The position numbers and the translations under genes were made by a program. The notes beneath the pieces were generated by a model, which made no database searches, had not been told where the DNA came from, and was given only the letters and a program-made list of their open reading frames with translations. Below, piece after piece: positions 472 through 64,000 of a DNA stretch of 64,000 nt. This stretch comes from Siphonodentalium dalli (taxonomy: Eukaryota > Mollusca > Scaphopoda > Gadilida > Siphonodentaliidae). The stretch lies in contig CP136064.1 of assembly GCA_032622095.1 (NCBI GenBank), positions 129,257,605-129,321,604 of the forward strand, given 5' to 3'. Position 1 is the first letter of the stretch; each line of letters begins with the position of its first letter.

Positions 472-816
472 CGCAGTCATGCATCGATGATCGATCCATA
501 TAATTATATTGTCTTATTTCTGACACCCGCCACTCACCAGTAAACGCAAGACTCGTCATTTTAAGAGCCTGTGATGTACTCATGTTCGAATTTACATCGT
601 GGAACCCATGCAAGTCTAAGATCCATATGCGAATATAAGGCCACTGACTATAGACAGTAAGATACATGCGCTGATTCGCCCACCCCCCACCCAGCCGCTA
701 TCCAGCATCCATGTCACACAATAATGTCAACTCGGACTCGGCTATTTCTCGATAACCTCTTTATGCCGTACATACAGATTGTACAAGCCCACATTGTTTT
801 GTTCCGGACTGTAGAA

Positions 817-991
817 AATTGTCGATAACCAGTCTAAATGAGCGGGAACTTAACTTACTACTTAAGTAGGACTTAATCTTGTTTTGTGAAACGCGTTCTT
901 GAAACGGAAAAGTTACATCATAAGATCCACCTTAGATATTAGATTAAGTCCATCTTAAGATAATCTTATGACATTGCTTCATGAAACAGGG
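817..991 (+). repeat. Dispersed repeat family, copy 1 of 4
   Basis: About 175 bp running from ATTGTCGATAACCAG to CTTCATGAAACAGGG. It shares the words ACTACTTAAGTAGGACTTAA, GAAACGCGTTCTTGAAACGG and AGATTAAGTCCATCTTAAGA with 57075-57248 and 60749-60929, and is partly related in opposite orientation to 57690-57869. It has no coding capacity and looks like a small non-autonomous element. The end motif CAGGGCCCTGTTTCATGAA, seen complete at 57690, is probably one terminus. Confidence 0.7.
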
Positions 992-2451
992 CTTGATATG
1001 CAAATTTTCAAATATATAACATTATTTATGGATGGCTGTCTTTCTAAATGAAAATAAATATGATATGTATTGAATCAAGAAAAATTAAGTCTCCTATCAT
1101 GATCATCAGATATGCTACCATGTATATATGAACTGCACTTTAGTGTGCTATCTTACAGAAGTTCTTGGTCCCAGAAAATAGAAATATTTTACATATTCTG
1201 CATGCAATAAAAGTAAAGTAAATGGGGTTATTATTTCCAACGAGATTATGCCTATTAAGGGTATCCTAAACGTGACAGAGTTGAAATTTATTCCAATATG
1301 GCCGAAAATTAATTTTTTTTTAAATGAGCTCTAATTCACTATAAGGTTTGCAAAATCATCAAAATGAACCAATACAGTATAATTATCATGAAACATAGAT
1401 CATTTTGAAATGTAAAATGTTGTCCCATCTTACAGGAATCTATATAAAATAATTATGAAACAATTGTTTTCAATTTTACACTTTGTTACAGTACTCATAT
1501 CTGTAAAATTACTGCATGTTTTTAGTATAATAGTTTACCGATAGGTTCTATGATATTCCAATATATTTAGAGGGACCTTGCTTTTTCGTTATGTTTCTTG
1601 TGTCATAAATTCACCATGTAAAATGTGGTCGTATCCGCTCGATATACGAAATTAACAACAACGCTCGAAAAATAGGGAACTTAATTTTTTAGTAAACAGT
1701 TACTAAAATCTGAGAATATATAATCACCACCCATTGGCACATTTAAGTACTTTATGGCCAAAACTATCGTGGATTTAAATGACAATTTCTTAGAAAAGAG
1801 ATATTTGAAGGTAAACTTTGACAAAATGGATTGTAAACATTCACGTGAATAAAAACACGGAATACCCTCCAAACGAAGTTAATCACAAGTATGAAATAAT
1901 TCACTCTTTAAATAATTTTTGTATTTACACATGGCAAAACACCTGAATATGCATTCGATTGACAACCTAGTACACGGTATACATATATAAACAGAATTTA
2001 TTAAATAATGTGTATATCTTTGAAGTATTATTTTGTTAGAGGGTATGGTTTCCCGGTCTTTCCCAAATCTATTTTTAGAGTCGTATGCGTTTTCCTCTTT
2101 GCCGAGCTTTGCAGATGCGAACTATTCTTATTAAAAGCAATCAAAACAAGGTTACACGTATAATACACAGTGGAAATAATCTACAACAACTGTAATTCAT
2201 GCAGGTATAATAGATAACTGCGCAATCGGTCATCCAAATTCATTTTTAGGGCTGTTGTATAGTTTGATCAACTTTCTCAGAAAAATAAAAACAGGCCGAA
2301 ATCTCGTTTTGGTTTCGGTTTGATGGATGACTAAGTGAGTTCAAAATATCAACAAAAAAAGATATTAGGGGTAATTATGCTATAATTATGTCAAATTATA
2401 ATATATGCTAGCTTCTTAGTGTTGTTTTTCAACTGTCTGGGGTAATTTCTG

Positions 2452-2766
2452 TCAGAAAATCTCTGAAGTATGAATGTATGCCAGGCCAATTGTGTCAAAA
2501 TGCACCAGTATCACAAAATATGATGCATCTGATATCTTAGGGAATGTTGGAAATAATACATACAGTGTAATTATTTGCTTCAATGTGTTATAAAGTTTCA
2601 GTTTTGAATGAGGTATTGATGAAATAGGGGCAAAATAGACAGCCTCATACATCCATATCATCAAGCTCACTTCATTGCCAACTTGGCTTCCCATACCAAA
2701 AAATAGTCCCATAAAGCAAATGGCCACATATTTGTGTTCAACTGATGGAGGGTGCCTTGAACTCAA
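2452..2766 (-). CDS. Unrecognised 104-codon open frame inside the duplication
   Basis: The frame encodes a fairly hydrophobic peptide with an early stretch like YVAICFMGLFFGMGSQ. I recognise no family, signal or catalytic motif, and no clear splice acceptor precedes it. An identical frame sits in the second copy at 62393-62707, but that follows from the near-identity of the whole duplicated segment and is not evidence of selection. It may be chance or old transposon-derived sequence. Low confidence that it is a gene. Confidence 0.12.
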   Translation of the reverse strand: MSSRHPPSVEHKYVAICFMGLFFGMGSQVGNEVSLMIWMYEAVYFAPISSIPHSKLKLYNTLKQIITLYVLFPTFPKISDASYFVILVHFDTIGLAYIHTSEIF

Positions 2767-3424
2767 TGGAGTTGCAGCTAAAACAGTGAGTTATTTTATA
2801 AAATGATGGTCCCTCTCCTCATCCTGGAATCCTAATCTATAAGATGCCACAATAATTATGTTTGCTTGCTTTATTAGTTCTGACTTCTGGTGATTGGCAT
2901 ACTTTCGTTCACTTTCCAGTTAATTTTCTCAATGAAATATATCTTTTAAAAATATGGATGTGATGCCAAAAACAATTTCAATCATATTCCTATGTCATTG
3001 TGAAATTTCATTTAATTGGAGTTATAGTCTTGCAATGATTGGCATTCATCGGAGTGAGGGGTATAAAAGCTCATTCGGTCATCTTTGTCACGCTTAGGAT
3101 ATCCTTAAATATTGTGTCACAATAATCGCTTGTACCAAATATCAATAAGAAATTCCAGACAGTTTTGAGAAAATCCTTTTCGAAAAAGACCAGGAAATGT
3201 TGACAAAACGTCGGTTGACCCTTAACATCGGCTATTGTCACGTATTCGCCATATTACGACCCGATTGGCTAAAATATACACGAGAGACATCTGGTGTTAC
3301 ACACATATAGTTTACTCATGTTGGAGCGTTTCAAAAAAACCTGTCTTCAATCAGTAATTGTAATGTTCTAAAGATAGTAATATTTCTGTCCTCGCCCTTA
3401 TAAAAAACACACTGTGAGAAACCA

Positions 3425-4060
3425 TGGCAAATACACCGTGGTATTTACCGTGATTGGAACAGGTAATTCTGGTAAAATTTGTCTATAGAATCGTCAACAT
3501 ATTATACGCACATATGTAGACCCACCCATGTATTTTTACTCCAGTGAAATGGAACCATCCATGTATTTCACCAAGGTATTTTAACGGGGATGTAAGTGTG
3601 TATGTGGTGGTTCTACCAGGGTAATTTACCTCGATATTAAGGTAATTTACCACGGTAGTACCGGGTTGCAGTTTTAGAAACCTTAAAATTTGAGACAACG
3701 TATTTGAGGTCATATGAATGGCACATGTAATTACATAAGGTGTAAAACTTCTGGACTTAGCTGACCTATTTATAAGAATATTATTTCCCCATTTTGTTAA
3801 CTTTTGAGTATGACACCGGGTACAATCGTTTTCCATTGATTAACTAACAAAATATGATTTTATTCTCATAATAAGAGACAGAAAACATATTAGCTGTGTA
3901 TTGTGTTATTTTGAAATAGAGTTATCGCTGATGCCCGTGTAAAATACTCTGATAAAAAGCCATGTAAAACCCACGTAAAAAGGAAATACTCTTGTAAATT
4001 CCAAGTAATGGCATTGTGTACCCCACTTATATTATACTCTGGTAAATCCTGGTGTATTAC
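3425..4060. repeat. Degenerate GGTAA/TTACC-rich interspersed motif
   Basis: Many imperfect copies of words such as GGTAATTTACC, CGTGGTATTTACCGTG, CCATGTATTT and CTGGTAAATCCTGG occur close together up to the satellite edge. They give many local inverted repeats. The 117-codon minus-strand frame across 3483-3836 is built from these words, so I do not call it a gene. Confidence 0.4.
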
Positions 4061-4287
4061 AATTACATACAAGACTCAGAGTAAATCTTACTGCGGAGCG
4101 TGTCTCACACAGGACGGTATAGAGACTCAGAGTGAATCTTACTACGGAGCGTGTCTCACACAGGACGGTATAGAGACTCAGACTGAATCTTACTACGGAG
4201 CGTGTCTCACACAGGACGGTATAGAGACTCAGAGTGAATCTTACTGCGGAGCGTGTCTCATATAGGACGGTATAGAGACTCAGAGTG

Positions 4288-5460
4288 AATCTGACAGTAG
4301 AGTGGGTCTAACACAGGACGGTATAGAGACTTAGAGTGAATCTTACAGTGGAGCTTGTCTCACACAGGTCGGTATAGAGACTCAGAGTGAATCTTACTGC
4401 GAGCGTATCTCACACAGGACAGTATAGAGACTCGTACTGAATCTTACTGCGGAGCGTGTCTCGCACAGGACGGTATAGACACTCAGAGTGAATCTGACAG
4501 TAGAGCGTGTCTCACACAGGACGGTATAGAGACTCAGAGTGAATCTGACAGTAGAGTGGGTCTAACACAGGACGGTATAGAGACTCAGAGTGAATCTTAC
4601 TACGGAGCGTGTCTCACACAGGACGGTATAGAGACTCAGACTGAATCTTACTACGGAGCGTGTCTCACACAGGACGGTATAGACACTCAGAGTGAATCTG
4701 ACAGTAAAGCGTGTCTCACACAGGACGGTATAGAGACTCAGAGTGAATCTTACTACGGAGCGTGTCTAACACAGGACGGTATAGAGACTCAGAGTGAATC
4801 TTACTACGGAGCGTGTCTCACACAGGACGGTATAGAGACTCAGACTGAATCTTACTACGGAGCGTGTCTCACACAGGACGGTATAGAGACTCAGAGTGAA
4901 TCTGACAGTAAAGCGTGTCTCACACAGGTCGGTATAGAGACTCAGAGTGAATCTGACAGTAGAGTGGGTCTAACACAGGACGGTATAGAGACTTAGAGTG
5001 AATCTTACAGTGGAGCTTGTCTCACACAGGTCGGTATAGAGACTCAGAGTGAATCTTACTGCGAGCGTATCTCACACAGGACAGTATAGAGACTCGTACT
5101 GAATCTTACTGCGGAGCGTGTCTCGCACAGGACGGTATAGACACTCAGAGTGAATCTGACAGTAGAGCGTGTCTCACACAGGACGGTATAGAGACTCAGA
5201 GTGAATCTGACAGTAGAGTGGGTCTAACACAGGACGGTATAGAGACTTAGAGTGAATCTTACAGTGGAGCTTGTCTCACACAGGTCGGTATAGAGACTCA
5301 GAGTGAATCTTACTGCGAGCGTATCTCACACAGGACAGTATAGAGACTCGTACTGAATCTTACTGCGGAGCGTGTCTCGCACAGGACGGTATAGACACTC
5401 AGAGTGAATCTGACAGTAGAGCGTGTCTCACACAGGACGGTATAGACACTCAGAGTGAAT
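4288..5460 (+). repeat. Left-edge five-monomer higher-order repeat
   Basis: A run of unusual monomers (GACAGTAGAGTGGGTCTAAC, GAGACTTAGAG, CAGTGGAGCTTG, CAGGTCGG, GCGAGCGTATC, GACTCGTACTG) recurs in the same order. The GAGACTTAG marker falls at about 4326, 4988 and 5242, so the spacings are about 662 and 254 bp (13 and 5 monomers, less small deletions). Confidence 0.8.
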
Positions 5461-5950
5461 CTGACATTAGAGCGTGTCTCACACAGGACGGTATAGAGAC
5501 TCAGAGTGAATCTTACTGCGGAGCGTGTCTCACACAGGTCGGTATAGAGACTCATACTGAATCATACTACGGAGCGTGTCTCACACAGGACGGTATAGAG
5601 ACTCAGACTGAATCTTACTACGGAGCGTGTCTCACACATGACGGTAGAGACTCATACTGAATCTTACTGCGGAGCGTGTCTCGCACAGGACGATATAGAG
5701 ACTCAGACTGAATCTTACTGCGGAGCGTGTCTCACACAGGACGGTATAGAGACTCAGAGTGAATCTTACTACGGAGCGTGTCTCACACATGACGGTATAG
5801 AGACTCAGAGTGAATCTTACTACGGAGCGTGTCTCACACAGGACGGTATAGAGACTCAGACTGAATCTTACTACGGAGCGTGTCTCACACAGGACGGTAT
5901 AGAGACTCAGAGTGAATCTTACTGCGGAGTGTGTCTCACACGGGACGGTA

Positions 5951-6049
5951 TAGAGACTCAGACTGAATCTTACTGTGGAGTGTGTCTCACACATGACGGT
6001 ATAGAATTAGCACAGAGCGAAGAGGAAGATCTAAGGCACCTTCTCAGAC
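5951..6049 (+). repeat. Copy of the array's right-hand flank embedded in the array
   Basis: A variant monomer (TACTGTGGAGTGTGTC, CACATGACGG) runs into non-satellite sequence at 6001-6049 containing GAATTAGCACAGAGCGA, AGGAAGATCTAAGGCACC and TTCTCAGAC, then returns to satellite. The same variant monomer followed by the same non-satellite tract, with one substitution, forms the right-hand boundary of the array at about 36955-37053. Confidence 0.92.
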
Positions 6050-6570
6050 TCATACTGAATCTTACTGCGGAGCGTGTCTCACACATGTCGGTATAGAGAC
6101 TCAGAGTGAATCTTACTACGGAGCGTGTCTCACACAGGACGGTATAGAGACTCAGAGTGAATCTGACAGTTGAGCGTGTCTCACACATGACGGTAGAGAC
6201 TCATACTGAATCTTACTGCGGAGCGTGTCTCGCACAGGACGATATAGAGACTCAGACTGAATCTTACTGCGGAGCGTGTCTCGCACAGGACGGTATAGAG
6301 ACTCAGACTGAATCTTACTGCGGAGCGTGTCTCATATAGGACGGTATAGAGACTCAGAGTGAATCTTACTGCGGAGCGTGTCTCGCACAGGACGGTATAG
6401 AGATTCAGAGTGAATCTGACAGTAGAGTGTGTCTAACACAGGACGGTATAGAGACTTAGAGTGAATCTTACAGTGGAGCGTGTCTCGCACAGGTCGGTAT
6501 AGAGACTCGTACTGAATCTTACTGCGGAGCGTGTCTCACACAGGACGGTATAGAGACTCAGAGTGAATCT

Positions 6571-7182
6571 GACAGTAAAGCGTGTCTCACACATGACGGT
6601 ATAGAGACTCAGAGTAAATCTTACTGCGGAGCGTGTCTCACACAGGACGGTATAGAGACTCAGACTGAATCTTACTGCGGAGCGTGTATCGCACAGGACG
6701 GTATAGAGACTCAGAGTGAATCTTACTGCGGAGCGTGTCTCACACAGGACGGTATAGAGACTCAGAGTGAATCTGACAGTTGAGCGTGTCTCACACAGGT
6801 CGGTATAGAGACTCAGACTGAATCTTACTGCGGAGCGTGTCTCACACAGGACGGTATAGAGACTCAGAGTGAATCTGACAGTAAAGCGTGTCTCACACAT
6901 GACGGTATAGAGACTCAGAGTAAATCTTACTGCGGAGCGTGTCTCACACAGGACGGTATAGAGACTCAGACTGAATCTTACTGCGGAGCGTGTATCGCAC
7001 AGGACGGTATAGAGACTCAGAGTGAATCTTACTGCGGAGCGTGTCTCACACAGGACGGTATAGAGACTCAGACTCAATCTTACTACGGAGCGTGTCTCAC
7101 ACAGGACGGTATAGAGACTCAGACTGAATCTTACTACGGAGCGTGTCTCACACAGGACGGTATAGAGACTCAGAGTGAATCT
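6571..7182 (+). repeat. Tandem duplication of a six-monomer block (306 bp)
   Basis: The order of variant monomers from GACAGTAAAGCG through CACATGACGG and GAGTAAATC is repeated exactly with a spacing of 306 bp (markers at about 6571 and 6877). Seen directly. Confidence 0.75.
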
Positions 7183-10100
7183 TACTGCGGAGCGTGTAAC
7201 ACACAGAACGGTATAGAGACTCAGAGTGAATCTTACTGCGGAGCGTGTCTCACACAGGTCGGTATAGAGACTCAGACTGAATCTTACTGCGGAGCGTGTC
7301 TCACACAGGACGGTATAGAGACTCAGACTGAATCTTACTGCGGAGCGTGTCTCACACAGGACGGTATAGAGACTCAGAGTGAATCTTTCTGCGGAGCGTG
7401 TCTCACACAGGACGGTATAGAGACTCAGAGTGAATCTTACTGCGGAGCGTGTCTCACATAGGACGGTATAGAGACTCAGAGTGAATCTTACTACGGAGCG
7501 TGTTTCACACAGGACGGTATAGAGACTCAGAGTGAATCTTACTACGGAGCGTGTCTCACACAGGACGGTATAGAGACTCAGACTGAATCTTACTGCGGAG
7601 CGTGTCTCACACGGGACGGTATAGAGACTCAGACTGAATCTTACTGCGGAGTGTGTCTCACACGGGACGGTATAGAGACTCAGACTGAATCTTACTACGG
7701 AGCGTGTTTCACACAGGACGGTATAGAGACTCAGAGTGAATCTTACTGCGGAGTGTGTCTCACACGGGACGGTATAGAGACTCAGACTGAATCTTACTGC
7801 GGAGCGTGTCTCACACAGGACGGTATAGAGACTCAGAGTGAATCTTACTACGGAGCGTGTTTCACACAGGACGGTATAGACACTCAGACTGAATCTTACT
7901 GCGGAGCGTGTCTCACACAGGACGGTATAGAGACTCAGACTGAATCTTACTGCGGAGCGTGTATCGCACAGGACGGTATAGAGACTCAGACTGAATCTTA
8001 CTGCGGAGCGTGTCTCACACAGGACGGTATAGAGACTCAGACTGAATCTTACTACGGAGCGTGTCTCGCACAGGACGGTATAGAGACTCAGACTGAATCA
8101 TACTACGGAGCGTGTCTCACACAGGACGGTATAGAGACTCAGAGTGAATCTTACTGCGGAGCGTGTCTCATATAGGACGGTATAGAGACTCAGAGTGAAT
8201 CTTACTGCGGAGCGTGTCTCACACAGGACGGTATAGAGACTCAGACTGAATCTTACTGCGGAGCGTGTCTCACACAGGACGGTATAGAGACTCAGAGTGA
8301 ATCTGACAGTTGAACGTGTCTCACACAGGACGGTATAGAGACTCAGACTGAATCTTACTACGGAGCGTGTCTCACACAGGACGGTATAGAGACTCAGAGT
8401 GAATCTTACTACGGAGCGTGTCTCACACAGGACGGTATAGAGACTCAGAGTGAATCTTACTGCGGAGCGTGACTCGCACAGGACGGTATAGAGACTCAGA
8501 GTGAATCTTACTGCGGAGCGTGTCTCACACATGACGGTATAGAGACTCAGAGTGAATCTTACTGCGGAGCGTGTCTCACACATGACGGTATAGAGACTCA
8601 GAGTGAATCTTACTACGGAGCGTGTCTCACACAGGACGGTATAGAGACTCAGAGTGAATCTTACTGCGGAGCGTGTCTCACACATGACGGTATAGAGACT
8701 CAGAGTGAATCTTACTGCGGAGCGTGTCTCACACATGACGGTATAGAGACTCAGAGTGAATCTTACTACGGAGCGTGTCTCACACAGGACGGTATAGAGA
8801 CTCAGAGTGAATCTTACTATGGAGCGTGTCTCACACAGGACGGTATAGAGACTCAGAGTGAATCTTACTACGGAGCGTGTCTCACACAGGACGGTATAGA
8901 GACTCAGAGTGAATCTTACTACGGAGCGTGTCTCGCACAGGACGGTATAGAGACTCAGAGTGAATCTGACAGTAGAGCGTGTCTCACATAGGACGGTATA
9001 GAGACTCAGAGTGAATCTTACTGCGGAGCGTGTCTCACATAGGACGGTATAGAGACTCAGAGTGAATCTTACTACGGAGCGTGTCTCATACAGGACGGTA
9101 TAGAGACTCAGAGTGAATCTTACTGCGGAGCGTGTCTCACACAGGACGGTATAGAGACTCAGACTGAATCTTACTGCGGAGCGTGTCTCACACAGGACGG
9201 TATAGAGACTCAGACTGAATCTTACTACGGAGCGTGTCTCACACAGGACGGTATAGAGACTCAGACTGAATCTTACTGCGGAGCGTGTCTCACACAGGAC
9301 GGTATAGAGCCTCAGAGTGAATCTTACTACGGAGCGTGTCTCGCACAGGACGGTATAGAGACTCAGAGTGAATCTTACTACGGAGCGTGTCTCGCACAGG
9401 ACGGTATAGAGACTCAGAGTGAATCTTACTGCGGAGCGTGTCTCGCACAGGACGGTATAGAGACTCAGACTGAATCTTACTACGGAGCGTGTCTCACACA
9501 GGACGGTATAGAGACTCAGAGTGAATCTTACTGCGGAGCGTGACTCACACAGGACGGTATAGAGACTCAGAGTGAATCTTACTGCGGAGCGTGACTCACA
9601 CAGGACGATATAGAGACTCAGACTGAATCTTACTGCGGAGCGTGTCTCACACAGGACGTTATAGAGACTCAGAGTGAATCTTACTGCGGAGCGTGTCTCA
9701 CATAGGACGGTATAGAGACTCAGACTGAATCTTACTGCGGAGCGTGTCTCACATAGGACGGTATAGAGACTCAGAGTGAATCTTACTGCGGAGCGTGACT
9801 CACACAGGACGGTATAGAGACTCAGAGTGAATCTTACTACGGAGCGTGTCTCACACAGGACGGTATAGAGACTCAGAGTGAATCTTACTGCGGAGCGTGT
9901 ATCGCACAGGACGGTATAGAGACTCAGAGTGAATCTTACTGCGGAGCGTGTATCGCACAGGACGGTATAGAGACTCAGACTGAATCTTACTACGGAGCGT
10001 GTCTCACACAGGACGGTATAGAGACTCAGAGTGAATCTTACTACGGAGCGTGTCTCATACAGGACGGTATAGAGACTCAGACTGAATCTTACTGCGGAGC

Positions 10101-37002: not shown

Positions 37003-37200
37003 AATTAGCACAGAGCGACGAGGAAGATCTAAGGCACCTTCTCAGACGAGTTAGGTTCAACCCATATGAGCCGTGGTCAGGTTTTATGCAACCGGCTATC
37101 AACAATATTATAGTGGTCAATCTACGATCGCTGTCATATCAATTGATTGGATAATTCTATACCGAGTCGATGTAGCCTATGTCCGATCGACGACAACGGA
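37003..37200 (+). other. Array right boundary and possible exon-like tract
   Basis: The satellite plus-strand frame continues past the boundary for about 50 codons, reading IELAQSDEEDLRHLLRRVRF and then NPYEPWSG, before a stop near 37150. The peptide looks more like ordinary protein than the satellite does, but I recognise no family. A 2-bp insertion in the last monomers (CACACATAGG, near 36939) breaks continuity with the array upstream. It could be a remnant of the sequence in which the satellite arose, or chance. Confidence 0.25.
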
Positions 37201-38216
37201 TAACTTGGCGTTGACCCTCGCTCGGCATAAACCACGTGGGCCATATACTGGTGAATACGAGCGCATGATGCTTAGTACTGTCGGATATAAGCTTTTATTT
37301 GTCCTTTGGTACAACTTTCAATTGCCACAAACCTGCATCGAACAATTAAGCACCGCGTCAATCCAACACACTACAGTAACACTTAGATTCCTACTCATGG
37401 ATGTCAACACCCATGATAGTTTGGTTCAATAACAAGAAGTGCTAGCATGTACAAGGACAAATTAAACACATTGTGACTCATTTATTTTATAAATAAAGAA
37501 AAGGACAACGACCTTGTCTATAAGAGCAGAACACCACACAGAACACGCATGCATGCACCTGACATGGTACTTACATATACTATATAGTTGCCTAATCTGA
37601 CGTACGGACATTGCAATCAATATGAATGATCGTATGGTTCGTTGTCCCCTATAATGCGGTGCAAACCATAACTTAAAATTAGTTTTGTATCAAATGAAAG
37701 GTACGACTCTGCCGCTAACAGTAGTCTTGTAATGTCAATTACTGATCATATAATGTCCTAGGACGAATTCAATACATATGCGTCGTGTGATAAGAACATA
37801 TAATTGAAAGACAGATATAATTATATTAGTCGACAAGTATCCTGCAATAATTACACCTACTTCATTTTATATTCTATTGTGAAGGTATTTTTTTTTTTAA
37901 AGTCTATGCAAAGTCAGCTTTAGTGTGTGGAACTAAGATAATTATATTAGGTCGATATTTGGTCGATATTTTATCAGTACTGAAATGTCAGGTGCACTTA
38001 CCGTACAATGTAATATTTTGTAGTCAAGTTTCATATTTACCAACAACGCACTAGCTTCGCTGAACATAGAAATGAACTACTAGTATTAAGTGATATTTTG
38101 AGGCCATTAAATGTAAGAAACTTAATATGCACATAAATGCAAAGATACCTTCATCACAGTTGATCAACGGCAACGTATACCGGAAGCAACGGAGTCCCAG
38201 GCGAGGAATCTTAAGT

Positions 38217-38304
38217 AGGATAATAGCTGAAAACTTTACATAATATCAGCGAATCCATTCGCGATCCATTCGCTGAAATATTGTACAGTATTCAGCCATT
38301 ATCC
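38217..38304. repeat. Imperfect hairpin, 88 bp
   Basis: The left arm begins AGGATAATAGCTGAA and the right arm ends TTCAGCCATTATCCT. The inner parts (ATCAGCGAATCCATTCG and CGATCCATTCGCTGAA) also pair. The inverted repeat fills nearly the whole span, as in a small foldback or MITE-like sequence. Confidence 0.6.
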
Positions 38305-39169
38305 TATACCTATTTGCAGCTAAAACGGTATCAGAAAGTGTTTATGACCGAGTTCAGAATATCACCTCTGATCAGAATGGATCAACCCGACACATGAGTT
38401 GAACCATGTGGTCGCCCCCATTCATCCGCTCAATGGCTGCACGGATGTCGTGACATCTTAACCAATTGTCAACTTAATGGACTGCATGGCAGTACCACAT
38501 TGTTTGTCCAACCATTGACTGAACAAGACTTCTCGACAATGATCTCCTTTTGTGATAGATTTAACCAATATCCTCAGAGTTTTGCGGCGTATTTATGATT
38601 AGGCGGAGAAGTATAGATTTAATGACTAATTGGTGTGCGCGTTATGCCTAATCGGAGATTTTGTCCGTTGGGATCGTTACTGAAGATCAACAGACTACAT
38701 TTACATGGAAATTTCTATATTAGTTTTGGTTTCTCGTGAGGTGTGTTACATCATGCCACCCGGGAACGGAATTAGATTGGGGAAATGTTAAGGAATCACT
38801 TAACTAAATTGTTTCCCATATAGACGACAATGTTAACGTTTCAGCCAAATTCACTGAATTGAAGCCTGCACGCCACTCACGTGATATTTACCCAGCTAGA
38901 TTGACAACAGCTGGTCATGGAAATGCAAGAAAAATCATAGGTCATGTGCTGTCATGTGATTGCTTTTTAGAATACATCCCTAAGTGTAGGACAGGGCTAT
39001 CCCACAGCCAAATTTATCCGAGAAAAACCCCGAACTACAGCAGCAAGTTAAATAAATTTCCCACTGACAAAAATCCATTCCCCCATTAATTACCAGTTTA
39101 AAGTATTTAGATATGATGTACAAATCAAATAAACAAGATTTCGTCCTTTAATAACGTGTCACGTGTGTC

Positions 39170-40379: not shown

Positions 40380-40860
40380 CATTTGTCATTTCTGAGTACT
40401 CGTTATATCATAAATATATCATAATGTATGGTATTGCATAACAAGTAAGCATTAAGTGATATCACATATTCGATTTTATGATATCATAAAATGAATTTGT
40501 GATATCACTTATTCGAATTTGTGATATCATATATTAAGTTTGTAATATCAATAATTCGGATAAAAATATTATGTATTGATATCACTATTATTGATATCAC
40601 TATTTAGTGATATCATAAAATGTTATTCATATCATAAAATGAATTTATGATATCACAAAATCGAATTATTTATATCACTAAATGCTTACTATTTTGTGAC
40701 ATCATATATTCGATTTTATGATATCATAAATTAATTTTATGATATCACTCTTCGAATTAGTGATATCATATATTTATTTTGTGATATTAATAACTACTAG
40801 TTATTTTATGATATCACATATAATGACATATTCGATTTTATTATATCACATATTCACGGA
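40380..40860. repeat. GATATC palindrome cluster 1
   Basis: About eighteen copies of GTGATATCAC, ATGATATCAT or close variants are spaced roughly every 20-30 bp, separated by words such as AAAATGAATT and ATTCGATTTT. The core is self-complementary, so either strand can fold into many hairpins. It shares a longer phrase (AAGTAAGCA, then TTAGTGATATCA and ATTCGATTTTATGATATCA) with the cluster at 50740-51120. Confidence 0.85.
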
Positions 40861-50739: not shown

Positions 50740-51120
50740 TTGATATTTTTTTATATCATAAAATGTTGGTGAATTAGTAATATCACAAAACGATTTTATA
50801 ATATCACAAAATGGAATTAGTGATATCATAAATTAATTTTGTGATATCATAAAACGAATATACGATATCACAAAATAAGTAAGCAGTTAGTGATATCAAT
50901 AATTCGATTTTATGATATCACAGAATTAGCTATTGATATCACAAAATGAATTAGTGATATCACAAATTCAATATTATGATTTCACAAAATGAATTTATGA
51001 TATCACAAATCGGAATTAGTGATATCTTTAAATCATTTTGTGATAACAAATATTCGAATTAGTAATACCATATGTTCATTTTGTGATATCATAAAATGAA
51101 TTAGTGATATCACTAAATGG
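50740..51120. repeat. GATATC palindrome cluster 2
   Basis: About fifteen copies of GTGATATCA or ATGATATCA-type words occur with the same spacer words as the cluster at 40380-40860. The two clusters share an ordered phrase of about 40 bp, so they are homologous and not two independent low-complexity tracts. Confidence 0.85.
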
Positions 51121-51900
51121 GATATATATATTCCCTGATTCTACAGATTCACTGTAATACATATACAAGTTCCCAAAATATTTCATTATACCCATTGACA
51201 GACGAAGCCCTGTGTGTGTATACCGATTTGGATTTATATATGAAGAAAGAGTGCTACATTTTTTAACATTTGTTTTGTCTGTCAAAATAATGACGATGAA
51301 TTAGCATGCCGGGCCCACGAACTTTGCAACCAGAGAAATATATACGGAACTTGGCTATATACATGTGTATGGCGCGAGGGCCATACACACAATCGTTTGT
51401 CGTTCCGTTGATAACATATTTCCCCAGTCTTGCAAACCCATTATGAAACCACTACCTTAACAACAGATTGCTATGTACGGCTTCAGTATTCCCAATTTAA
51501 GAAAAAAAAAAACAATGACCGACTAACCGGTTATTCAAATTGTCAAATGATATTGGATTTAGACGAGCAGAATAGAGATATTTGCATAGATATTTGCATA
51601 CTGGCATCGGATATGTAGTCGCCAATAGAATATCGGAACATCAGATCTGTCTCATACCCCGGAAACTCGGATTGCGACGCGTGCATGGGAGATAGAGCGG
51701 AATTGGCGCCATGGTGAGTCCCGATCTAATGGCTTCTCCATATATACTCGTGAATTATCCTGTGGGAATGGAATACCGTGGTAGTCCGTGACATTAATTT
51801 AGCTGCTGAACTAATTATCGTGATTGCTTGTGATAAGATATTAAGTTTCCACGCGAGACGATTTACAAATCACACGACGTTCGATCCATATTCTCGTCGG
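51120..51900. other. Region upstream of the stress-protein exon
   Basis: Contains a hairpin at 51364-51389 and a CATGGTGAGT sequence at about 51712-51721 that resembles a splice donor, which might belong to an alternative 5' exon. No TATA box or promoter can be assigned with confidence. Confidence 0.3.
51364..51389. other. Perfect 10-bp hairpin
   Basis: TGTGTATGGC and GCCATACACA pair around a six-base loop (GCGAGG). Seen directly; function unknown. Confidence 0.6.
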
Positions 51901-51920
51901 ATTTCGTGACGTGGGCCACG

Positions 51921-52002
51921 ATGGCTGTCAGGCCCCGAAGACGCAGCCGTACTGTTCTCATCGCCATAGATGATAGCGAGTTTTCGGAATATGCCTTCAA
52001 TT
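51921..52002 (+). CDS. First coding exon of a universal stress protein (UspA-domain) gene
   Basis: The ATG at 51921 sits in a good context (GCCACGATGG). It encodes a short basic leader, MAVRPRRRS, then RTVLIAIDDSEFSEYAF, which matches the start of the UspA fold: beta-1 (VLIAID), the conserved Asp of the nucleotide-binding region, and a Ser/Glu-rich turn leading into helix 1. The exon ends AAT-T followed by GTAAGT at 52003. The phase fits the family: T plus GG from the next exon would give the Trp that commonly follows AFxW in these proteins. Animal USP proteins are small cytosolic stress-related proteins with poorly known roles. No second exon carrying the glycine-rich ATP-binding motif could be found in the remaining 12 kb, so the gene is incomplete here: a long intron, an assembly break, or a dead first exon. 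Identification rests on motif recognition. Confidence 0.65.
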
Positions 52003-52085
52003 GTAAGTTTAATAATTGTCCTCCGAAAAGAATGACTGTCGAAATGAGCGGTGTCGAAATGAGCAGTGTCCATCCGTCCAAAATA

Positions 52086-52440
52086 ATTGTTGTCTGGGTG
52101 ATAACTTGAATATTTTACAAGCTTTTTTAAATTTCATAAATGGTTTACATACGATAAAGTCCTGGTCAAGTTCGAATTTGGGTCTGGCCAGACAATTTTG
52201 ACAGAGTTATTTCCCTTTTTGTATTTGCAGATTATTATTATTATTATTATTATTATTATAATGTCCTATGATAACTTACATTTAACCTATTGCTTTCAAA
52301 GTTGGTATCTGGATTACTCACATGGAAAAGCAGGTCAATTTCGAATATGGGTCCGGTCCAATCTTTTTGACATAATTATGCCCCATTTTGACTTAGAATT
52401 GCTGTTTATTTTGACGTCCGAGTGATAACTTTATAGTTTT
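52086..52440 (+). repeat. Two diverged units of an intronic dispersed repeat
   Basis: Two related stretches, about 52086-52220 and 52262-52435, share GTGATAACTT or ATGATAACTT, TTCGAATTTGGGTCTGG or TTCGAATATGGGTCCGG, and a TTTTGACAGAGTTATTTCCC or TTTTGACATAATTATGCCCC end. They lie just inside the putative intron after the stress-protein exon. Confidence 0.55.
52231..52259 (+). repeat. ATT microsatellite
   Basis: About ten uninterrupted ATT units follow a TTTGCAG that resembles a splice acceptor only by chance. Confidence 0.95.
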
Positions 52441-53910
52441 ATTGTTGTCTGCATGGGTGACGTCAAATTTAGAAACTGGATTATTGACATGAAAATACAG
52501 GTTAAAAATAACAGATATGAATCGTGGACATTTGGCCGAAAAAGCTTCTATTAAATAATATAGATTGTATTTAGAATTGTTCTCATATAATCCTGGTACA
52601 GTAAAAAGAGGGCAATTTGTAGCAGAACAGAAATTTTGCGGAAAAGTTCGGAGCCTACAAAGAGGACGAAATTTTATCGTGTTAAGTATAGCACCCTCAA
52701 TCAACGGTAAGTAACGGTAAGAGGAATATTATATGGTCAGAAATGATTATTTTTCAAACTAATATGGCCTATAAATCGGTGTCTTCGCATATAGACGAAC
52801 GCGAACCTAAAATAAATACGTTATAAACGGGATAAACAAAACCATGATGCTGAAATGAGTTTGGTATGTTTGTAAGACAATGAAGTTAACATCATATATA
52901 CATTTCTTCAAATTGAGTCTGAATCTGGGCTAGCAAACTCTCCACCCAAGCGCTTTTGCTCACTGCTTCATTCTTTTTAGGTTCATAACAATTGGTGTTC
53001 GCGAATCTTGATGCCATGTGGTTCCCCAATGTTCTATATGGCTGCCAATTCAAACGCGAACAACTTATCGTCCGCTAATTCAGTACTGTTAGAATTCCAA
53101 CAAATGATGAAAGTTAGATGTAATATTGAATTAGAAGTATAAAAAAAATGGTATCTTTTGGATTTCCATGTGGAAATTCCTCAGACAATATTATAGGAAT
53201 TTGCATCCTTCTTTTCAAAAGTTATATATACTCATGTAAACTGAGATCTAATAGACCCAAATATAGCTGGCTTCTTAGTACGGCTAAAATGTTATAAAAC
53301 AATGTAGAAGTTAGGTACTTTGCATTAAAACAAATTAGACTGAACTTTCAAAATAGATGGAAAACAATTCAAGAACTATTCCATAATTGAGTGGTCACGG
53401 TGCTGCAGATAGAAATCCTAAATATAGTATATCTATTACTCACCCATTTTCAGCTTATGACTCATATATAATAGAGAACATTGAACCAGTATGCTGAGCG
53501 TTGTAGTTTACACCATAATTATTGTAAACAAATTACAGTATAATGGAGAGAAATCTTCTTCACCTCATTCAATATATGCATATATTATTATAAATTATGA
53601 AATATACAAAGAATTGAAAACTTAACTATTCTACTAATCAGTTAACCAATTGTACAACTATAAACTCTTCCTAGTGTTAAGAACAACTGGTAACAGGACA
53701 TTAATGATATCTACTGTACCGTGCTTTCCATTTGAGCTTTTAGAAATTATATGAATTTTCCTTCTTTATATATATAAACACATGTATATTATAGTATGAT
53801 TTGTTAAAAACGCGACATATAATATATGCAAGAATGATTTTCATTCAAAAACTTATTATGATTATTGCTCAATGATTTAGTATGTTTCCAATTTAGAATT
53901 TGGAACTTAG
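52440..53910. other. AT-rich sequence with no recognised feature
   Basis: Only short open frames. I searched by eye for later UspA exon motifs (a glycine-rich segment followed by GS) and found none. Confidence 0.4.

Positions 53911-53913
<3 letters not shown>

Positions 53914-53983
<70 letters not shown>
53914..53983. repeat. AT dinucleotide microsatellite
   Basis: About 35 uninterrupted AT units. Fully self-complementary, so able to extrude as a cruciform and prone to length error in assembly. Confidence 0.97.
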
Positions 53984-53989
<6 letters not shown>

Positions 53990-55444: not shown

Positions 55445-55488
<44 letters not shown>

Positions 55489-55511
55489 TCTTCCAAAATA
55501 TATAATAGAAG
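54591..55511 (+). mobile_element. CA-tailed retroposon-like element with tandem subunits
   Basis: The body (about 54605-55486) consists of roughly five diverged subunits of 90-150 bp containing TGACCTTGAATTGACCCGA, AAGGTCAAGGTCACGTCGCA and TCGAAATCCCATCAAAATT. It ends with AAGTTTCATCAAAATCGGCT, CGTTTTCGAGTTCATCG and a CA tail. Near-identical words flank it: TATATAACTAGAAG (54591-54604) and TATATAATAGAAG (55499-55511), a candidate target-site duplication differing by one base. A 3' end of this form is, to my knowledge, typical of RTE-like LINEs or their SINEs. No reverse transcriptase is present. Confidence 0.6.
55446..55486 (+). repeat. CA microsatellite tail
   Basis: About 20 CA units at the 3' end of the element above, beginning right after CATCGCGA. 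Confidence 0.95.
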
Positions 55512-55519
55512 TGGCATAT

Positions 55520-57070: not shown

Positions 57071-57074
57071 TAAT

Positions 57075-57248
57075 AAATTGTCGAGAGCCAGTCTAAAAGC
57101 GCGCGAACTTAAATTACTACTTAAGTAGGACTTAATCTTGTTTTGTGAAACGCGTTCTTGAAACGGAAAAGTTACATCATAAGATCCGCCTTAGATCTTA
57201 GATTAAGTCCATCTTAAGATAAACTTATGACATTGCTTCATGAAACAG
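57075..57248 (+). repeat. Dispersed repeat family, copy 2 of 4
   Basis: Matches 817-991 over its length (AAATTACTACTTAAGTAGGA, GAAACGCGTTCTTGAAACGG, CATTGCTTCATGAAACAG) with scattered substitutions. It lies outside the duplicated segment, which shows the family is dispersed and not merely co-duplicated. Confidence 0.75.
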
Positions 57249-57689
57249 ACCCCAGATCAGAGAAATATAGAAGAGATCGGTGGTTTATACTTCAAAAACG
57301 TTTCTTTGTCAAACTTAGAATCCTAACTGTTTCAGTCTAAAAAGACGATCTTTAAAATCAGTAATTTGGAAACACCGCTCTTAAAAAAAACGTTCTTTAC
57401 AATAACAGGTTTACGCTGATAGAGCGTATAACAGTGTGAGTATCGGGTGCACTGGTCCGATCCCCGACCCGTTTTTACATTTTGTGAAAATGGCTTCATA
57501 TGGATATAAATTATGCCTCCGTCTGAAGGTTTTGTTTGTCCAATTAAAACAAAAATTATGCAGACGAGTCCTCTCGAGCAGGGAACAATCAACTGAATAT
57601 AGTACACAGTAGATAGCATACCTGGTCAGCTGGAGATTTGGCTTTGGACCTGTGACCGAAAACTCATCTTAGCCCAAAGTGTTATTGAT

Positions 57690-57869
57690 CAGGGCCCTGT
57701 TTCATGAAAGCAACTTATGACATAGTTGGGACTTAATATGGTCATAAGTTCAAACTTCAGTCATAAGTGCGTTTCACGAACAAGGTCTTAACTTAAGATG
57801 GTCTTAACTTTGGTCTTAACTTTAAGACTGGTGTGATGTGTCTTAAGATAATCTTAAAGTTAAGACCCA
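57690..57869 (-). repeat. Dispersed repeat family, copy 3 of 4 (inverted, diverged)
   Basis: Starts CAGGGCCCTGTTTCATGAA, the reverse complement of the end of the other copies, then shows diverged TCATAAG, ACTTAA and GTTTCACGAACAAGGTCTTA words. It ends near TTAAAGTTAAGACCCACG. The following GTGGCATATCGATCACAAAT also occurs at 55511-55530. Confidence 0.55.
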
Positions 57870-57949
57870 CGTGATAAGTGGCATATCGATCACAAATATG
57901 GCGGCCTATGTTATTTTGCAATTACGGAGATATCTGTACATTGTCTGTG

Positions 57950-58290
57950 GTGGGCAACTCGTCGTCTGGTATACAGGGTCGTGGCTACAGAGTGAGAGGG
58001 GGTGTTTGCCTCGAAATGTCCAACTACACCCCCTTAAACAATACCAAATTCTCTTTGGGTTTAAACATTCCATCTGGTACCTCAAACTTTCGAAAACCAA
58101 AGTTTGGAGAGAGCACCCCACCCCCACCCCCCCCCCCCCCCCCCCCACCGTATAACCATAGGGTTAGTTTGGTAAAAACAATTCAGAGCACAGGCTTATC
58201 ATCAGGGACGTGGCGAATGGGGTTTGTGTGTTGTCTACCCACCCCCCCCCCCCCCCCCGCCCACACACACACACACTTTGGTCAAAATGT
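57950..58290 (+). repeat. Repeat with C-homopolymer tracts
   Basis: Contains uninterrupted C runs of about 20 bases (58127-58146) and 17 bases (58242-58258), the second followed by a short CA repeat. Words upstream (TCCAACTACACCCCCTTAA, CCATCTGGTACCTCAAA) resemble the reverse complement of 59640-59790, so this is one copy of a dispersed family. Overlapping open frames rich in proline come from the C runs. Confidence 0.55.
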
Positions 58291-58439
58291 TTAGCAATTG
58301 GAAATTTCATGCCTGACAAAACAACATTAATCGTACACTATATATAGGTTTCAATTGTTTGAATTTCTAACTAGTACAGGAATGTGTTGTTAAACTTGTT
58401 TTAGACAAACAGCAGCAACCGAAATGGGAATCAGTTGGA

Positions 58440-58580
58440 AAATCACCAACTTTAGGGGCGTCAGGTCAGGGGGGGGTCAGAAAAAATTTCCAGGCACGTA
58501 TGATGGGGTGGGTGGGTGTCTCTCGTGTCCGAAAAGCAGTTTTTTCCATGTGCCAAATTTTTCTCCATTTCGGAAGTTGG
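58440..58580 (+). repeat. Inverted partner of the repeat at 59420-59615
   Basis: AAAAAATTTCCAGGCACGTA followed by TGAT (58481-58504) is the exact reverse complement of 59566-59589, and neighbouring GGTCAG and G-rich words also match. The pair forms an inverted repeat about 1.1 kb apart. Confidence 0.65.
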
Positions 58581-59410
58581 ATCAGTTGCACAATGGCCAA
58601 CAATAAACCAAATTCAACTTGATAGAACAAGAAACTGCGCTATTGGAAAAAATAAAATTTAATCAGGATTCCATCTACTGATACAACAAAATAAAAATAA
58701 CTATGCAGAACTCAGCTGAAAATAAGCAATAAAATGAAAGCACACTTGACCATATGTGACATGGAAATAAAGATATAATAAATAATGGAATAAAATAGAC
58801 TTTTGACAACGTAAAACATAAAATCTTAACATATAAATTGAAGGCCAGTTGGGTCAGCTTGAACAATTTCAAATTGTTTTCCAAGTTAATGTGGATCAGC
58901 TTGTAATGTTAATCACAGTAACAAAGTTTTATCGTCACTGATATCGTGAGCAAAAAAAAGAAGTGAGATTGGGCTATCCATCCATATGTTATTCCCAATT
59001 GTTACGAAGCCTATTAAGTCAGGCAGTGGCTACCAGCCTGCCATTACACGCTATAACATGTTTCCTCAGTTCTGGTTTCTGAGATGCCCCAAGAAGAGTC
59101 ATGCGGGTATATCATGGTTATGTTTGGTATTAGCATTATTCTTCAAACTGGGATGAACTGGGATGAACAGTTGTATTTCCACATGTTTTGATAAAAAAAA
59201 TTGGTTCAAGCAATATATCACATAGGAAATATCAAAATATCAAATAATCACTATATATTATGAAAATGAATGTTAATAAAAACTTTGGCACTCTGCCTAT
59301 CCCTAGAAATATGATTATGTTGACACATATCTTGATTAATGACACTTATATGATAATTTCAAATAGTATCGTTATCTTCATTATGCACTGTTCTATTAAA
59401 ATCTCGCGCA
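58580..59410. other. AT-rich spacer between inverted repeats
   Basis: No gene recognised. Short hydrophobic open frames are explained by base composition. Confidence 0.4.
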
Positions 59411-59419
59411 ATAAACTAT

Positions 59420-59830
59420 TTAGGGGGTGGGTGTCCAAAACTGACCGGAAAAAAATTCCTGAAACGGAAAAAAAAGGGTGGGTGTCCAAAATTGCCTGGA
59501 AAAAAAGGCCGAAAACGGAAGAAATTGGGTGGGTGGGTGGTCCGAGGCCGGAAAAAATTAAAATGATCATACGTGCCTGGAAATTTTTTTCGACCCCCCC
59601 CCCCCCCCCCCTCCCCCCTCTGGTCAGGTTAGAAATTTCGAACTGTTGGAATATTTGAGATACCAATTGGAAAGTTTATATCCAACGGGTGGGGTGGACA
59701 TGGCATTTCGCGAACATGGAAGTTTTCCCGGTTCAATTAAGGGGCGGGTGCAGTTGGAAATTGCACGATGTACCCCCCCCCCCCCCCCCCACAGAGACCA
59801 ACTAGCCACCCTGAGCCACATCGAATGTAT
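59420..59830 (-). repeat. GGGTGGGTGTCC subrepeats and C-homopolymer tracts
   Basis: Three imperfect units of about 50 bp start GGGTGGGTG near 59425, 59478 and 59527, followed by CCGGAAAAAA or CTGGAAAAAA words. C runs of 18 bases lie at 59594-59611 and 59773-59790. It is related in inverted orientation to 57950-58580. Confidence 0.6.
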
Positions 59831-59839
59831 GATATAGTC

Positions 59840-60406
59840 AATTATCAGCTGTGTGTGTGACCTATAGATAATATATATTATAAAATTGTATTACCCACGA
59901 ATTAAACTTTTGATAAGAATTGTGGCCTTGCTCAAAGCTCACAATCTCCTCTATGTTATTCCATGTGTGTGTGGGGAGATGGGGTAAAATGAGATCAATT
60001 AATGTATTGATTCTTTCGTCTTTCCAAATTTCCGTCGGCTGTTTTGCAGGGGTGGGATGACCATTGTACAGCATACTGTATATATGATATACATACCCGT
60101 AACGATGACACCCCTTAATGCGAGTGTGCTAATGAAAACGTAGTTATATATATATATCCATGTTATGACAGCCGCATAAAACATCTGCATAAAAATAATG
60201 AAAAAAGTAACTCTAACAAATATTTTTCATTTCCCTTTGAATCGAAAACTGACCTATGTGTGTCCTGATGACATCGCCGATTTATTTTGATTATTGCTAC
60301 ACGTAGAGAGCGGTGGTCGATAATACACGTGTTATGTCGGCTCACATAAAAAAAATCGCCGCCTGATCATTGCTCTCAGTGGATTAACTCGGCGTAAATG
60401 CATGGT
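59840..60406. other. Right flank before the second duplicated segment
   Basis: AT-rich sequence with no gene recognised. It meets the second segment copy at 60406/60407 with no extra bases, as expected for a simple tandem junction. Confidence 0.5.
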
Positions 60407-60748
60407 CGCAGTCATGCATCGATGATCGATCCATATAATTATATTGTCTTATTTCTGACACCGCCACTCACCAGTAAACGCAAGGCTCGTCATTTTAAGA
60501 GCCTGTGATGTACTCATGTTCGAATTTACATCGTGGAACCCATGCAAGTCTAAGATCCATATGCGAATATAAGGCCACTGACTATAGACAGTAAGATACA
60601 TGCGCTGATTCGCCCACCCCCACCCAGCCGCTATCCAGCATCCATGTCACACAATAATGTCAACTCGGACTCGGCTATTTCTCGATAACCTCTTTATGCC
60701 GTACATACAGATTGTACAAGCCCACATTGTTTTGTTCCGGACTGTAGA

Positions 60749-60929
60749 AAATTGTCGATAACCAGTCTAAATGAGCGGGAACTTAACTTACTACTTAAGT
60801 AGGACTTAATCTTGTTTTGTGAAACGCGTTCTTGAAACGGAAAAGTTACATCATAAGATCCACCTTAGATATTAGATTAAGTCCATCTTAAGATAATCTT
60901 ATGACATTGCTTCATGAAACAGGGCCCTG
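60749..60929 (+). repeat. Dispersed repeat family, copy 4 of 4 (within duplication copy B)
   Basis: Same as 817-991 but with a complete terminus, CAGGGCCCTGCAGGCTTG, where copy A reads CAGGGCTTG. The 9-bp difference falls exactly at the end of the repeat. Confidence 0.7.
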
Positions 60930-62392
60930 CAGGCTTGATATGCAAATTTTCAAATATATAACATTATTTATGGATGGCTGTCTTTCTAAATGAAAATAAA
61001 TATGATATGTATTGAATCAAGAAAAATTAAGTCTCCTATCATGATCATCAGATATGCTACCATGTATATATGAACTGCACTTTAGTGTGCTATCTTACAG
61101 AAGTTCTTGGTCCCAGAAAATAGAAATATTTTACATATTCTGCATGCAATAAAAGTAAAGTAAATGGGGTTATTATTTCCAACGAGATTATGCCTATTAA
61201 GGGTATCCTAAACGTGACAGAGTTGAAATTTATTCCAATATGGCCGAAAATTAATTTTTTTTTAAATGAGCTCTAATTCACTATAAGGTTTGCAAAATCA
61301 TCAAAATGAACCAATACAGTATAATTATCATGAAACATAGATCATTTTGAAATGTAAAATGTTGTCCCATCTTACAGGAATCTATATAAAATAATTATGA
61401 AACAATTGTTTTCAATTTTACACTTTGTTACAGTACTCATATCTGTAAAATTACTGCATGTTTTTAGTATAATAGTTTACCGATAGGTTCTATGATATTC
61501 CAATATATTTAGAGGGACCTTGCTTTTTCGTTATGTTTCTTGTGTCATAAATTCACCATGTAAAATGTGGTCGTATCCGCTCGATATACGAAATTAACAA
61601 CAACGCTCGAAAAATAGGGAACTTAATTTTTTAGTAAACAGTTACTAAAATCTGAGAATATATAATCACCACCCATTGGCACATTTAAGTACTTTATGGC
61701 CAAAACTATCGTGGATTTAAATGACAATTTCTTAGAAAAGAGATATTTGAAGGTAAACTTTGACAAAATGGATTGTAAACATCACGTGAATAAAAACACG
61801 GAATACCCTCCAAACGAAGTTAATCACAAGTATGAAATAATTCACTCTTTAAATAATTTTTGTATTTACACATGGCAAAACACCTGAATATGCATTCGAT
61901 TGACAACCTAGTACACGGTATACATATATAAACAGAATTTATTAAATAATGTGTATATCTTTGAAGTATTATTTTGTTAGAGGGTATGGTTTCCCGGTCT
62001 TTCCCAAATCTATTTTTAGAGTCGTATGCGTTTTCCTCTTTGCCGAGCTTTGCAGATGCGAACTATTCTTATTAAAAGCAATCAAAACAAGGTTACACGT
62101 ATAATACACAGTGGAAATAATCTACAACAACTGTAATTCATGCAGGTATAATAGATAACTGCGCAATCGGTCATCCAAATTCATTTTTAGGGCTGTTGTA
62201 TAGTTTGATCAACTTTCTCAGAAAAATAAAAACAGGCCGAAATCTCGTTTTGGTTTCGGTTTGATGGATGACTAAGTGAGTTCAAAATATCAACAAAAAA
62301 AGATATTAGGGGTAATTATGCTATAATTATGTCAAATTATAATATATGCTAGCTTCTTAGTGTTGTTTTTCAACTGTCTGGGGTAATTTCTG

Positions 62393-62707
62393 TCAGAAAA
62401 TCTCTGAAGTATGAATGTATGCCAGGCCAATTGTGTCAAAATGCACCAGTATCACAAAATATGATGCATCTGATATCTTAGGGAATGTTGGAAATAATAC
62501 ATACAGTGTAATTATTTGCTTCAATGTGTTATAAAGTTTCAGTTTTGAATGAGGTATTGATGAAATAGGGGCAAAATAGACAGCCTCATACATCCATATC
62601 ATCAAGCTCACTTCATTGCCAACTTGGCTTCCCATACCAAAAAATAGTCCCATAAAGCAAATGGCCACATATTTGTGTTCAACTGATGGAGGGTGCCTTG
62701 AACTCAA
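62393..62707 (-). CDS. Unrecognised 104-codon open frame, second copy
   Basis: Encodes the same peptide as 2452-2766. Its intactness follows from the recent duplication. No family recognised; low confidence that it is a gene. Confidence 0.12.
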   Translation of the reverse strand: MSSRHPPSVEHKYVAICFMGLFFGMGSQVGNEVSLMIWMYEAVYFAPISSIPHSKLKLYNTLKQIITLYVLFPTFPKISDASYFVILVHFDTIGLAYIHTSEIF

Positions 62708-64000
62708 TGGAGTTGCAGCTAAAACAGTGAGTTATTTTATAAAATGATGGTCCCTCTCCTCATCCTGGAATCCTAATCTATAAGATGCCACAATAATTAT
62801 GTTTGCTTGCTTTATTAGTTCTGACTTCTGGTGATTGGCATACTTTCGTTCACTTTCCAGTTAATTTTCTCAATGAAATATATCTTTTAAAAATATGGAT
62901 GTGATGCCAAAAACAATTTCAATCATATTCCTATGTCATTGTGAAATTTCATTTAATTGGAGTTATAGTCTTGCAATGATTGGCATTCATCGGAGTGAGG
63001 GGTATAAAAGCTCATTCGGTCATCTTTGTCACGCTTAGGATATCCTTAAATATTGTGTCACAATAATCGCTTGTACCAAATATCAATAAGAAATTACAGA
63101 CAGTTTTGAGAAAATCCTTTTCGAAAAAGACCAGGAAATGTTGACAAAACGTCGGTTGGCCCTTAACATCGGCTATTGTCACGTATTCGCCATATTACGA
63201 CCCGATTGGCTAAAATATACACGAGAGACATCTGGTGTTACACACATATAGTTTACTCATGTTGGAGCGTTTCAAAAAAACCTGTCTTCAATCAGTAATT
63301 GTAATGTTCTAAATATAGTAATATTTCTGTCCTCGCCCTTATAAAAAACACACTGTGAGAAACCATGGCAAATACACCGTGGTATTTACCGTGGTGATTG
63401 GAACAGGTAATTCTGGTAAAATTTGTCTATAGAATCGTCAACATATTATACGCACATATGTAGACCCACCCATGTATTTTTACTCCAGTGAAATGGAACC
63501 ATCCATGTATTTCACCAAGGTATTTTAACGGGATGTAAGTGTGTATGTGGTGGTTCTACCAGGGTAATTTACCTCGATATTAAGGTAATTTACCACGGTA
63601 GTACCGGGTTGCAGTTTTAGAAACCTTAAAATTTGAGACAACGTATTTGAGGTCATATGAATGGCACATGTAATTACATAAGGTGTAAAACTTCTGGACT
63701 TAGCTGACCTATTTATAAGAATATTATTTCCCCATTTTGTTAACTTTTGAGTATGACACCGGGTACAATCGTTTTCCATTGATTAACTAACAAAATATGA
63801 TTTTATTCTCATAATAAGAGACAGAAAACATATTAGCTGTGTGTTGTGTTATTTTGAAATAGAGTTATCGCTGATGCCCGTGTAAAATACTCTGATAAAA
63901 AGCCATGTAAAACCCACGTAAAAAGGAAATACTCTTGTAAATTCCAAGTAATGGCATTGTGTACCCCACTTATATTATACTCTGGTAAATCCTGGTGTAT

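Follow-up and report, generated by a model that had tools for sequence, protein, structure and literature searches.

The 64,000-base-pair (bp) stretch of DNA analyzed here, referred to as the window, lies on contig CP136064.1 of the scaphopod Siphonodentalium dalli (C4:129257605-129321604; coordinates with the prefix C4 refer to the contig and those without a prefix to the window). It carries two nearly identical sequences, one near its left end and one at its right end, which enclose a 51-bp satellite array and a long spacer, and the question raised by this arrangement is what exactly has been repeated, where the repeated unit begins and ends, and whether the repetition belongs to the animal or to its assembly. 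A first-pass annotation of the window had proposed a tandem duplication of a unit of about 59.9 kilobases (kb) that includes the satellite and runs from 472 to 60406. Our results point to a duplication in a different phase, with the partner of the right copy located mostly to the left of the window: very probably, a segment made up of the satellite, the spacer, and part of the first intron of a predicted universal stress protein (Usp) gene was recently duplicated head to tail. For this analysis, 128 kb around and including the window were read without a break (C4:129219605 to C4:129347604), and probes were searched against the genome, an assembly of 2.23 gigabases (Gb) in nine contigs, with 40 candidates scored in each search; the copy counts given for probes below refer to these scored candidates.

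Two adjacent copies of a satellite-containing segment

The order of segments on the contig is P - sat0 - R0 - L1 - sat1 - R1 - L2 - Q, where P and Q are the left and right flanks, R is the spacer, L is the end segment of the unit, sat0, R0, and L1 form the left copy, and sat1, R1, and L2 form the right copy. The repeated unit is thus satellite - R - L, present as two adjacent copies on the same strand, head to tail, which now measure 41,571 bp on the left and 59,943 bp on the right (4073-64015). What survives of the initial proposal is the tandem duplication itself, the inclusion of the satellite, and the length, which the right copy has; its limits and its phase do not. The close similarity and shared orientation of 472-4057 and 60407-64000 were borne out (99.4% identity, with 5 mismatches and 16 gap positions in 6 openings), and the match between L1 and L2 extends 15 bases past the window to 64015, where it ends. 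These are the only two loci among the scored candidates that cover the entire 472-4057 stretch, the remainder being parts of a dispersed repeat inside it, and the match is therefore far beyond chance. The satellite had been predicted to restart at about 64016, and this prediction failed, as the 10 kb to the right of the window contain neither a 19-base satellite word (at most 2 substitutions) nor a 51-base unit (at most 3). The first-pass annotation had named such an outcome as telling against its model; it disposes of the choice of unit and leaves the tandem duplication unaffected.

The missing partner was found on the left. A probe from the spacer (37100-39100) has its only other full copy at C4:129231776, 62.9 kb leftward, and probes from 51121-53120 and from 3109-4072 each have two full copies. 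The spacer aligns with R0 in two blocks, with 24 mismatches in 20,662 columns over 37001-57633 and 5 mismatches in 2,788 columns over 57630-60413. The sole full-length match of a 2,500-bp probe from Q is Q itself; repeat relatives match the first 334 bp of Q, though none of them is among the 40 candidates scored for that probe. The position 60406/60407 was correctly described as holding nothing extra, but it is old, continuous sequence rather than the duplication junction for which it had been taken, as R and L are neighbors in the left copy too. Likewise, 1-471 is indeed not repeated within the window, and it constitutes the last 471 bases of a 566-bp mobile element that has landed where R0 and L1 meet. 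A 7-bp target duplication, CGCAGTC, flanks this element on both sides, and the right copy retains its empty site, with a single CGCAGTC at 60407-60413 and no insert, so the left edge at 471/472 is a transposon end and not the end of the unit. To the left of the element, homology resumes and continues for about 26 kb up to sat0.

Once the two inserts in the spacer and at its edge are set aside, 34 substitutions separate the copies over 26,931 aligned positions (0.126%), and they are spread over R and L; 13 of them are transitions and 21 are transversions, and there are 29 gaps in the alignment, two of which are the target duplications. The duplication appears to be recent.

Which junction is new

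Two boundaries of L compete for the role of breakpoint, namely L2 followed by Q and L1 followed by sat1, and an old dispersed repeat, part of which makes up the last ~680 bases of L, allows them to be told apart. Among 38 other places scored with a probe from the end of L, 13 match through the last query base, 3 stop one base short, and the others end earlier. Ten relatives were fetched of those 13. Compared with L2 followed by Q, none of the 10 ends short of 8 bases beyond the boundary; three end there, and 7 of the 10 match Q over at least 71 bases, either directly or past an interruption. Compared with L1 followed by satellite, all 10 end 3 bases beyond the boundary, and none reads into the satellite. 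As most of the relatives continue into Q and none into the satellite, L followed by Q is the old arrangement and L1 followed by sat1 is the break. We also considered that L might end at a transposon end, and this was rejected because most of the fetched relatives run on into Q. Given an old boundary on the right and a new one in the middle, the whole order of segments is accounted for by a single tandem duplication of satellite - R - L.

At the new junction, L ends in ...ACATACAA and the satellite begins with GACTCAG, and the satellite base preceding this point is also A, so about 1 base is shared. So short an overlap argues for end joining or replication template switching rather than homologous crossing-over, and it is presumably by one of these two routes that the join was formed.

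The ancestral order would have been P, satellite, R (with promoter and exon 1), L (part of intron 1), and Q (the rest of intron 1 and the later exons). A single event would have linked the end of L, in intron 1, with a site in the satellite array, giving the present series with its new junction between L1 and sat1, after which the left copy would have gained mobile elements of 315, 2,453, and 566 bp and both arrays would have changed in length and unit order. The features of the locus are collected in Table 1.

Table 1. Positions of the segments, junction, and predicted exon discussed in the text
Feature	Position	Strand	Remarks
P element, dispersed	C4:129219605-129220104		Adjoins sat0
sat0, 51-bp satellite array, ~226 units	C4:129220106-129231679		Left of R0
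3' part of 566-bp mobile element (C4:129257510-129258075)	1-471	+	Left copy only
L1, end of left copy	472-4072	+	99.4% to 60407-64000; match reaches 64015
Putative new junction of L1 and sat1, duplication breakpoint	4072/4073 (C4:129261676/129261677)	+	~1 bp microhomology (A)
sat1, 51-bp satellite array, ~646 units	4073-37003	+	TRF
Relic of the right edge of the array, inside sat1	5950-6048	+	Last unit plus ~45 bp of R, then satellite again
R1, spacer with exon 1 of the predicted Usp gene	37004-60406	+	Copy R0 at C4:129231677-129257509
Predicted exon 1b (coding part), Usp gene	51921-52002	+	Identical exon 1a at C4:129246600
L2, end of right copy	60407-64000, on to 64015	+	Followed by Q (intron 1), no satellite

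A predicted universal stress protein gene with a doubled 5' end

The open frame of predicted exon 1b reads like the opening of a universal stress protein and runs up to a GTAAGT splice donor. It was first recognized by eye from its Usp-like start, and profile and peptide tests followed. Its peptide of 27 residues is encoded at two places in the genome, one per copy, in identical form. A Pfam search with 10 of the 27 stop-to-stop frames of at least 90 amino acids outside the array, the frame of exon 1 among the 10, gave nothing over the cut-off. The Usp model searched against the genome gave nine matches over the cut-off, all to the C-terminal part of the model, and the C-terminal exon is single at this locus (C4:129345068-129345244, 23.5 kb past the right end of the window). 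Reading Q supplied exon 2 (C4:129337164-129337244) and a probable exon 3 (near 129342245-129342336). The resulting predicted product of 150 amino acids matches positions 3-141 of the 141 in Pfam Usp (PF00582; E 4.8e-29; 102.2 bits against a cut-off of 24), as well as eight distinct solved sequences, several of which are named universal stress proteins.

Because the right end of the duplication, C4:129321619, falls between exon 1b and exon 2, it lies in predicted intron 1. On this model, the event is a partial duplication of the 5' end of a gene, in which exon 1 and the region upstream of it are doubled, while the later exons, in Q, remain single at the locus. R0 and R1 are exactly identical over 1,133 bp upstream of the exon 1 ATG and over 2,025 bp from the ATG downstream. 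As the right copy leads directly on into the remainder of the gene, the predicted gene should be complete through exon 1b and should still work. Lying 62.9 kb upstream, exon 1a would then provide another promoter and another first exon; it could be spliced to exon 2 across sat1 and would yield a spliced coding sequence no different from that of exon 1b. Beyond this gene, searches of the window against Rfam at gathering scores and for tRNA genes returned nothing.

A pair of locus-specific satellite arrays

When up to 3 mismatches are allowed, the satellite occurs at this locus alone: at this threshold, the 51-bp unit has 681 matches in the genome, all on one strand, with 494 in the window and 187 in the stretch of sat0. 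Exact satellite words had no match in the genome_contigs and viral_contigs collections. The two arrays agree in unit order only near R, over approximately the last 1.7 kb of sat0, its 315-bp insert included. For the remainder, the left 9,788 bp of sat0 were compared with sat1 and with 200 shuffles of the units, and the outcome is mixed. The longest exact tract shared with sat1 (254 bp) was reached in 15 of the 200 shuffles, and the share of the left part of sat0 lying under tracts of at least 150 bp (21.7%) was reached in 67; the number of such tracts is in excess (91 against a shuffle mean of 57, reached in 3 of 200). Two of the three measures thus resemble shuffled units, and the third does not. 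Unit parsing slips at interruptions (around units 38-45 of sat1 and 200-210 of sat0), and unit statistics are unreliable there.

Two histories would fit these observations. Sat0 may have lost a large internal piece, such that the arrays keep different parts of one longer array, or unit order may have been lost by turnover. We prefer deletion, as the arrays pass abruptly from shared to unshared order. Sat1 also contains large internal copies (for example, 1,271 identical bases 8,572 bases apart), and its relic of the array's right edge, after which satellite resumes at the join AGAC and which was not found in sat0, is the trace of an earlier duplication within the array. Sat1 carries long open frames on both strands, up to 669 amino acids, which 50-base units break; as 51 bases are 17 codons, these frames look like by-products of the period.

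Mobile elements in and around the copies

The three mobile elements private to the left copy lie at C4:129230536 (315 bp), C4:129252296 (2,453 bp), and C4:129257510 (566 bp), and the right copy has no private insert longer than 13 bp in R and L. Three young insertions on the left against none on the right, which is the copy that heads the gene, is not a significant difference, as the numbers are too small. Both the 2,453-bp and the 566-bp elements are multi-copy, have target duplications, and correspond to base-exact empty sites in the right copy. The former separates the two alignment blocks of R0, and at least 22 other places among the scored candidates carry an end-to-end copy of it at 95-99% identity. 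The 315-bp element, located in sat0, was found at full or near-full length at all 40 places among the matches listed, its own locus included, and is absent from the corresponding place in sat1.

The family of the 566-bp element was followed through 12 loci (this one and 11 relatives), of which 11 were readable at both ends. Nine of these have a perfect 7-bp target duplication, one has a duplication with one mismatch, and one (L043) has none directly at its ends. The ends themselves are fixed, CACCTAGT...ATAGCCTG, and the length varies from 488 to 1,035 bp in the 11 readable copies. An older copy (~90%) of the family of the 2,453-bp insert occupies 57691-60929 and so spans the boundary of R and L; in the left copy, the young 2,453-bp insert sits about 60 bp from this older member. 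At the end of the older element, 9 bp are present in L2 (60923-60934) and absent from L1 (at 993).

The 500 bp of P next to sat0 match at least 39 other scored places at full or nearly full length and 93-97% identity, and this element is rich in palindromes, AACGTTGGATTCCAACGTT. Within the spacer, two short arrays rich in GTGATATCAC palindromes (40450-40814 and 50753-51119) are similar to each other in both orientations, and a related stretch lies in Q near C4:129342390-129342890.

Alternative explanations

A recent head-to-tail duplication of satellite - R - L is what the sequence most probably records, and several points weigh against it. The arrays are unlike each other except near R, which calls for strong turnover or the loss of a large piece since the duplication. 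P is a dispersed mobile element, so sat0 is cut off by a transposon on its left, and its present left edge need not be the older limit of the array. No clear target duplication was seen around the 315-bp element. The gene model is a prediction that leaves more than one choice for the limits of exon 3 and for the exon 4 acceptor (of 18 splice variants listed, one was used). Finally, the assembly is the sole witness to the join of L1 and sat1.

This last point bears most directly on the chief alternative, in which two haplotypes would have been placed in series by the assembler, one ending after L1 and the other starting inside the satellite. False duplications are described in PMC8081667 as being among the most common assembly errors, contigs often break in satellites, as is generally known, and alleles can differ, as these copies do, in insertions and in the length of an array. 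The difference of 0.126% could itself be allelic, since it falls within the heterozygosities of 0.1-1.1% given for other genomes, those of vertebrates, in that study, which also gives a value of 1.6%. Against this, the substitution difference is low, there is only one new junction, and the 128 kb contain no undetermined base (N), the join included. A passage on collapse in PMC8081667 also counts against an artifact, which would additionally require that one haplotype lost its Q and the other its P exactly at one gapless join. The locus shares with false duplications, as described in that source, the feature of nearly identical copies in series within an assembly, and differs in its gapless join, its low substitution difference, and its single new junction. 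We consider an artifact improbable, while giving it a real share of the doubt, and favor a duplication in the animal.

The other two explanations can be set aside almost entirely. The match and the clean edges within the window suit a unit of 472-60406, but the satellite-free 10 kb after the window, the transposon edge at 472, and the adjacency of R and L in the left copy make it barely tenable. Two insertions of a larger mobile segment, which the first-pass annotation had also raised and which the several mobile elements in and around the unit might bring to mind, are just as hard to credit, as the R and L probes find only two full copies among the candidates scored, these are adjacent and in tandem, and other matches are to parts of dispersed repeats within the unit; target duplications around the whole unit were not searched for.

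Relation to known duplications and implications

The event is of a known kind, being a tandem segmental duplication one of whose breakpoints falls in tandem repeats. In PMC4232551, the CUP1 arrays of yeast are attributed to tandem duplication by unequal nonhomologous recombination, and as in those arrays, the locus described here consists of head-to-tail copies of a once single-copy segment with no extended homology at the new junction. Compared with CUP1 as described there, it differs in that the breakpoints lie in a satellite array and an intron, there is one extra copy, and only the 5' end of the gene is involved. PMC4090240 reports that copy-number breakpoints in human germline cases are enriched in tandem repeats, and the breakpoint in tandemly repeated DNA found here is similar to those cases but is one instance in a different animal.

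This locus stands out for its clear polarity and for having two locus-specific arrays accompanied by a spacer that serves as a clock. It would represent a tandem duplication that is young, polarized, and resolved to the base, one of whose breakpoints lies in a satellite specific to the locus. It also carries a practical lesson, in that a window read alone can put a duplication in the wrong phase. A more far-reaching interpretation, which we regard as speculative and rather unlikely in its entirety, is that the satellite acted as a fragile site that enabled the event; that the stress gene has come to have two promoters, each with an array of its own (226 and 646 units, respectively) about 15 kb upstream, one array now being intronic; and that the satellite has lost nearly all unit order outside the edge within 0.126% of spacer divergence. 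If the duplication is real in the animal, a stress gene has had its promoter and first exon doubled, and S. dalli would offer an array pair of known relative age from which the rate of change in satellite order could be compared with that of point mutation.

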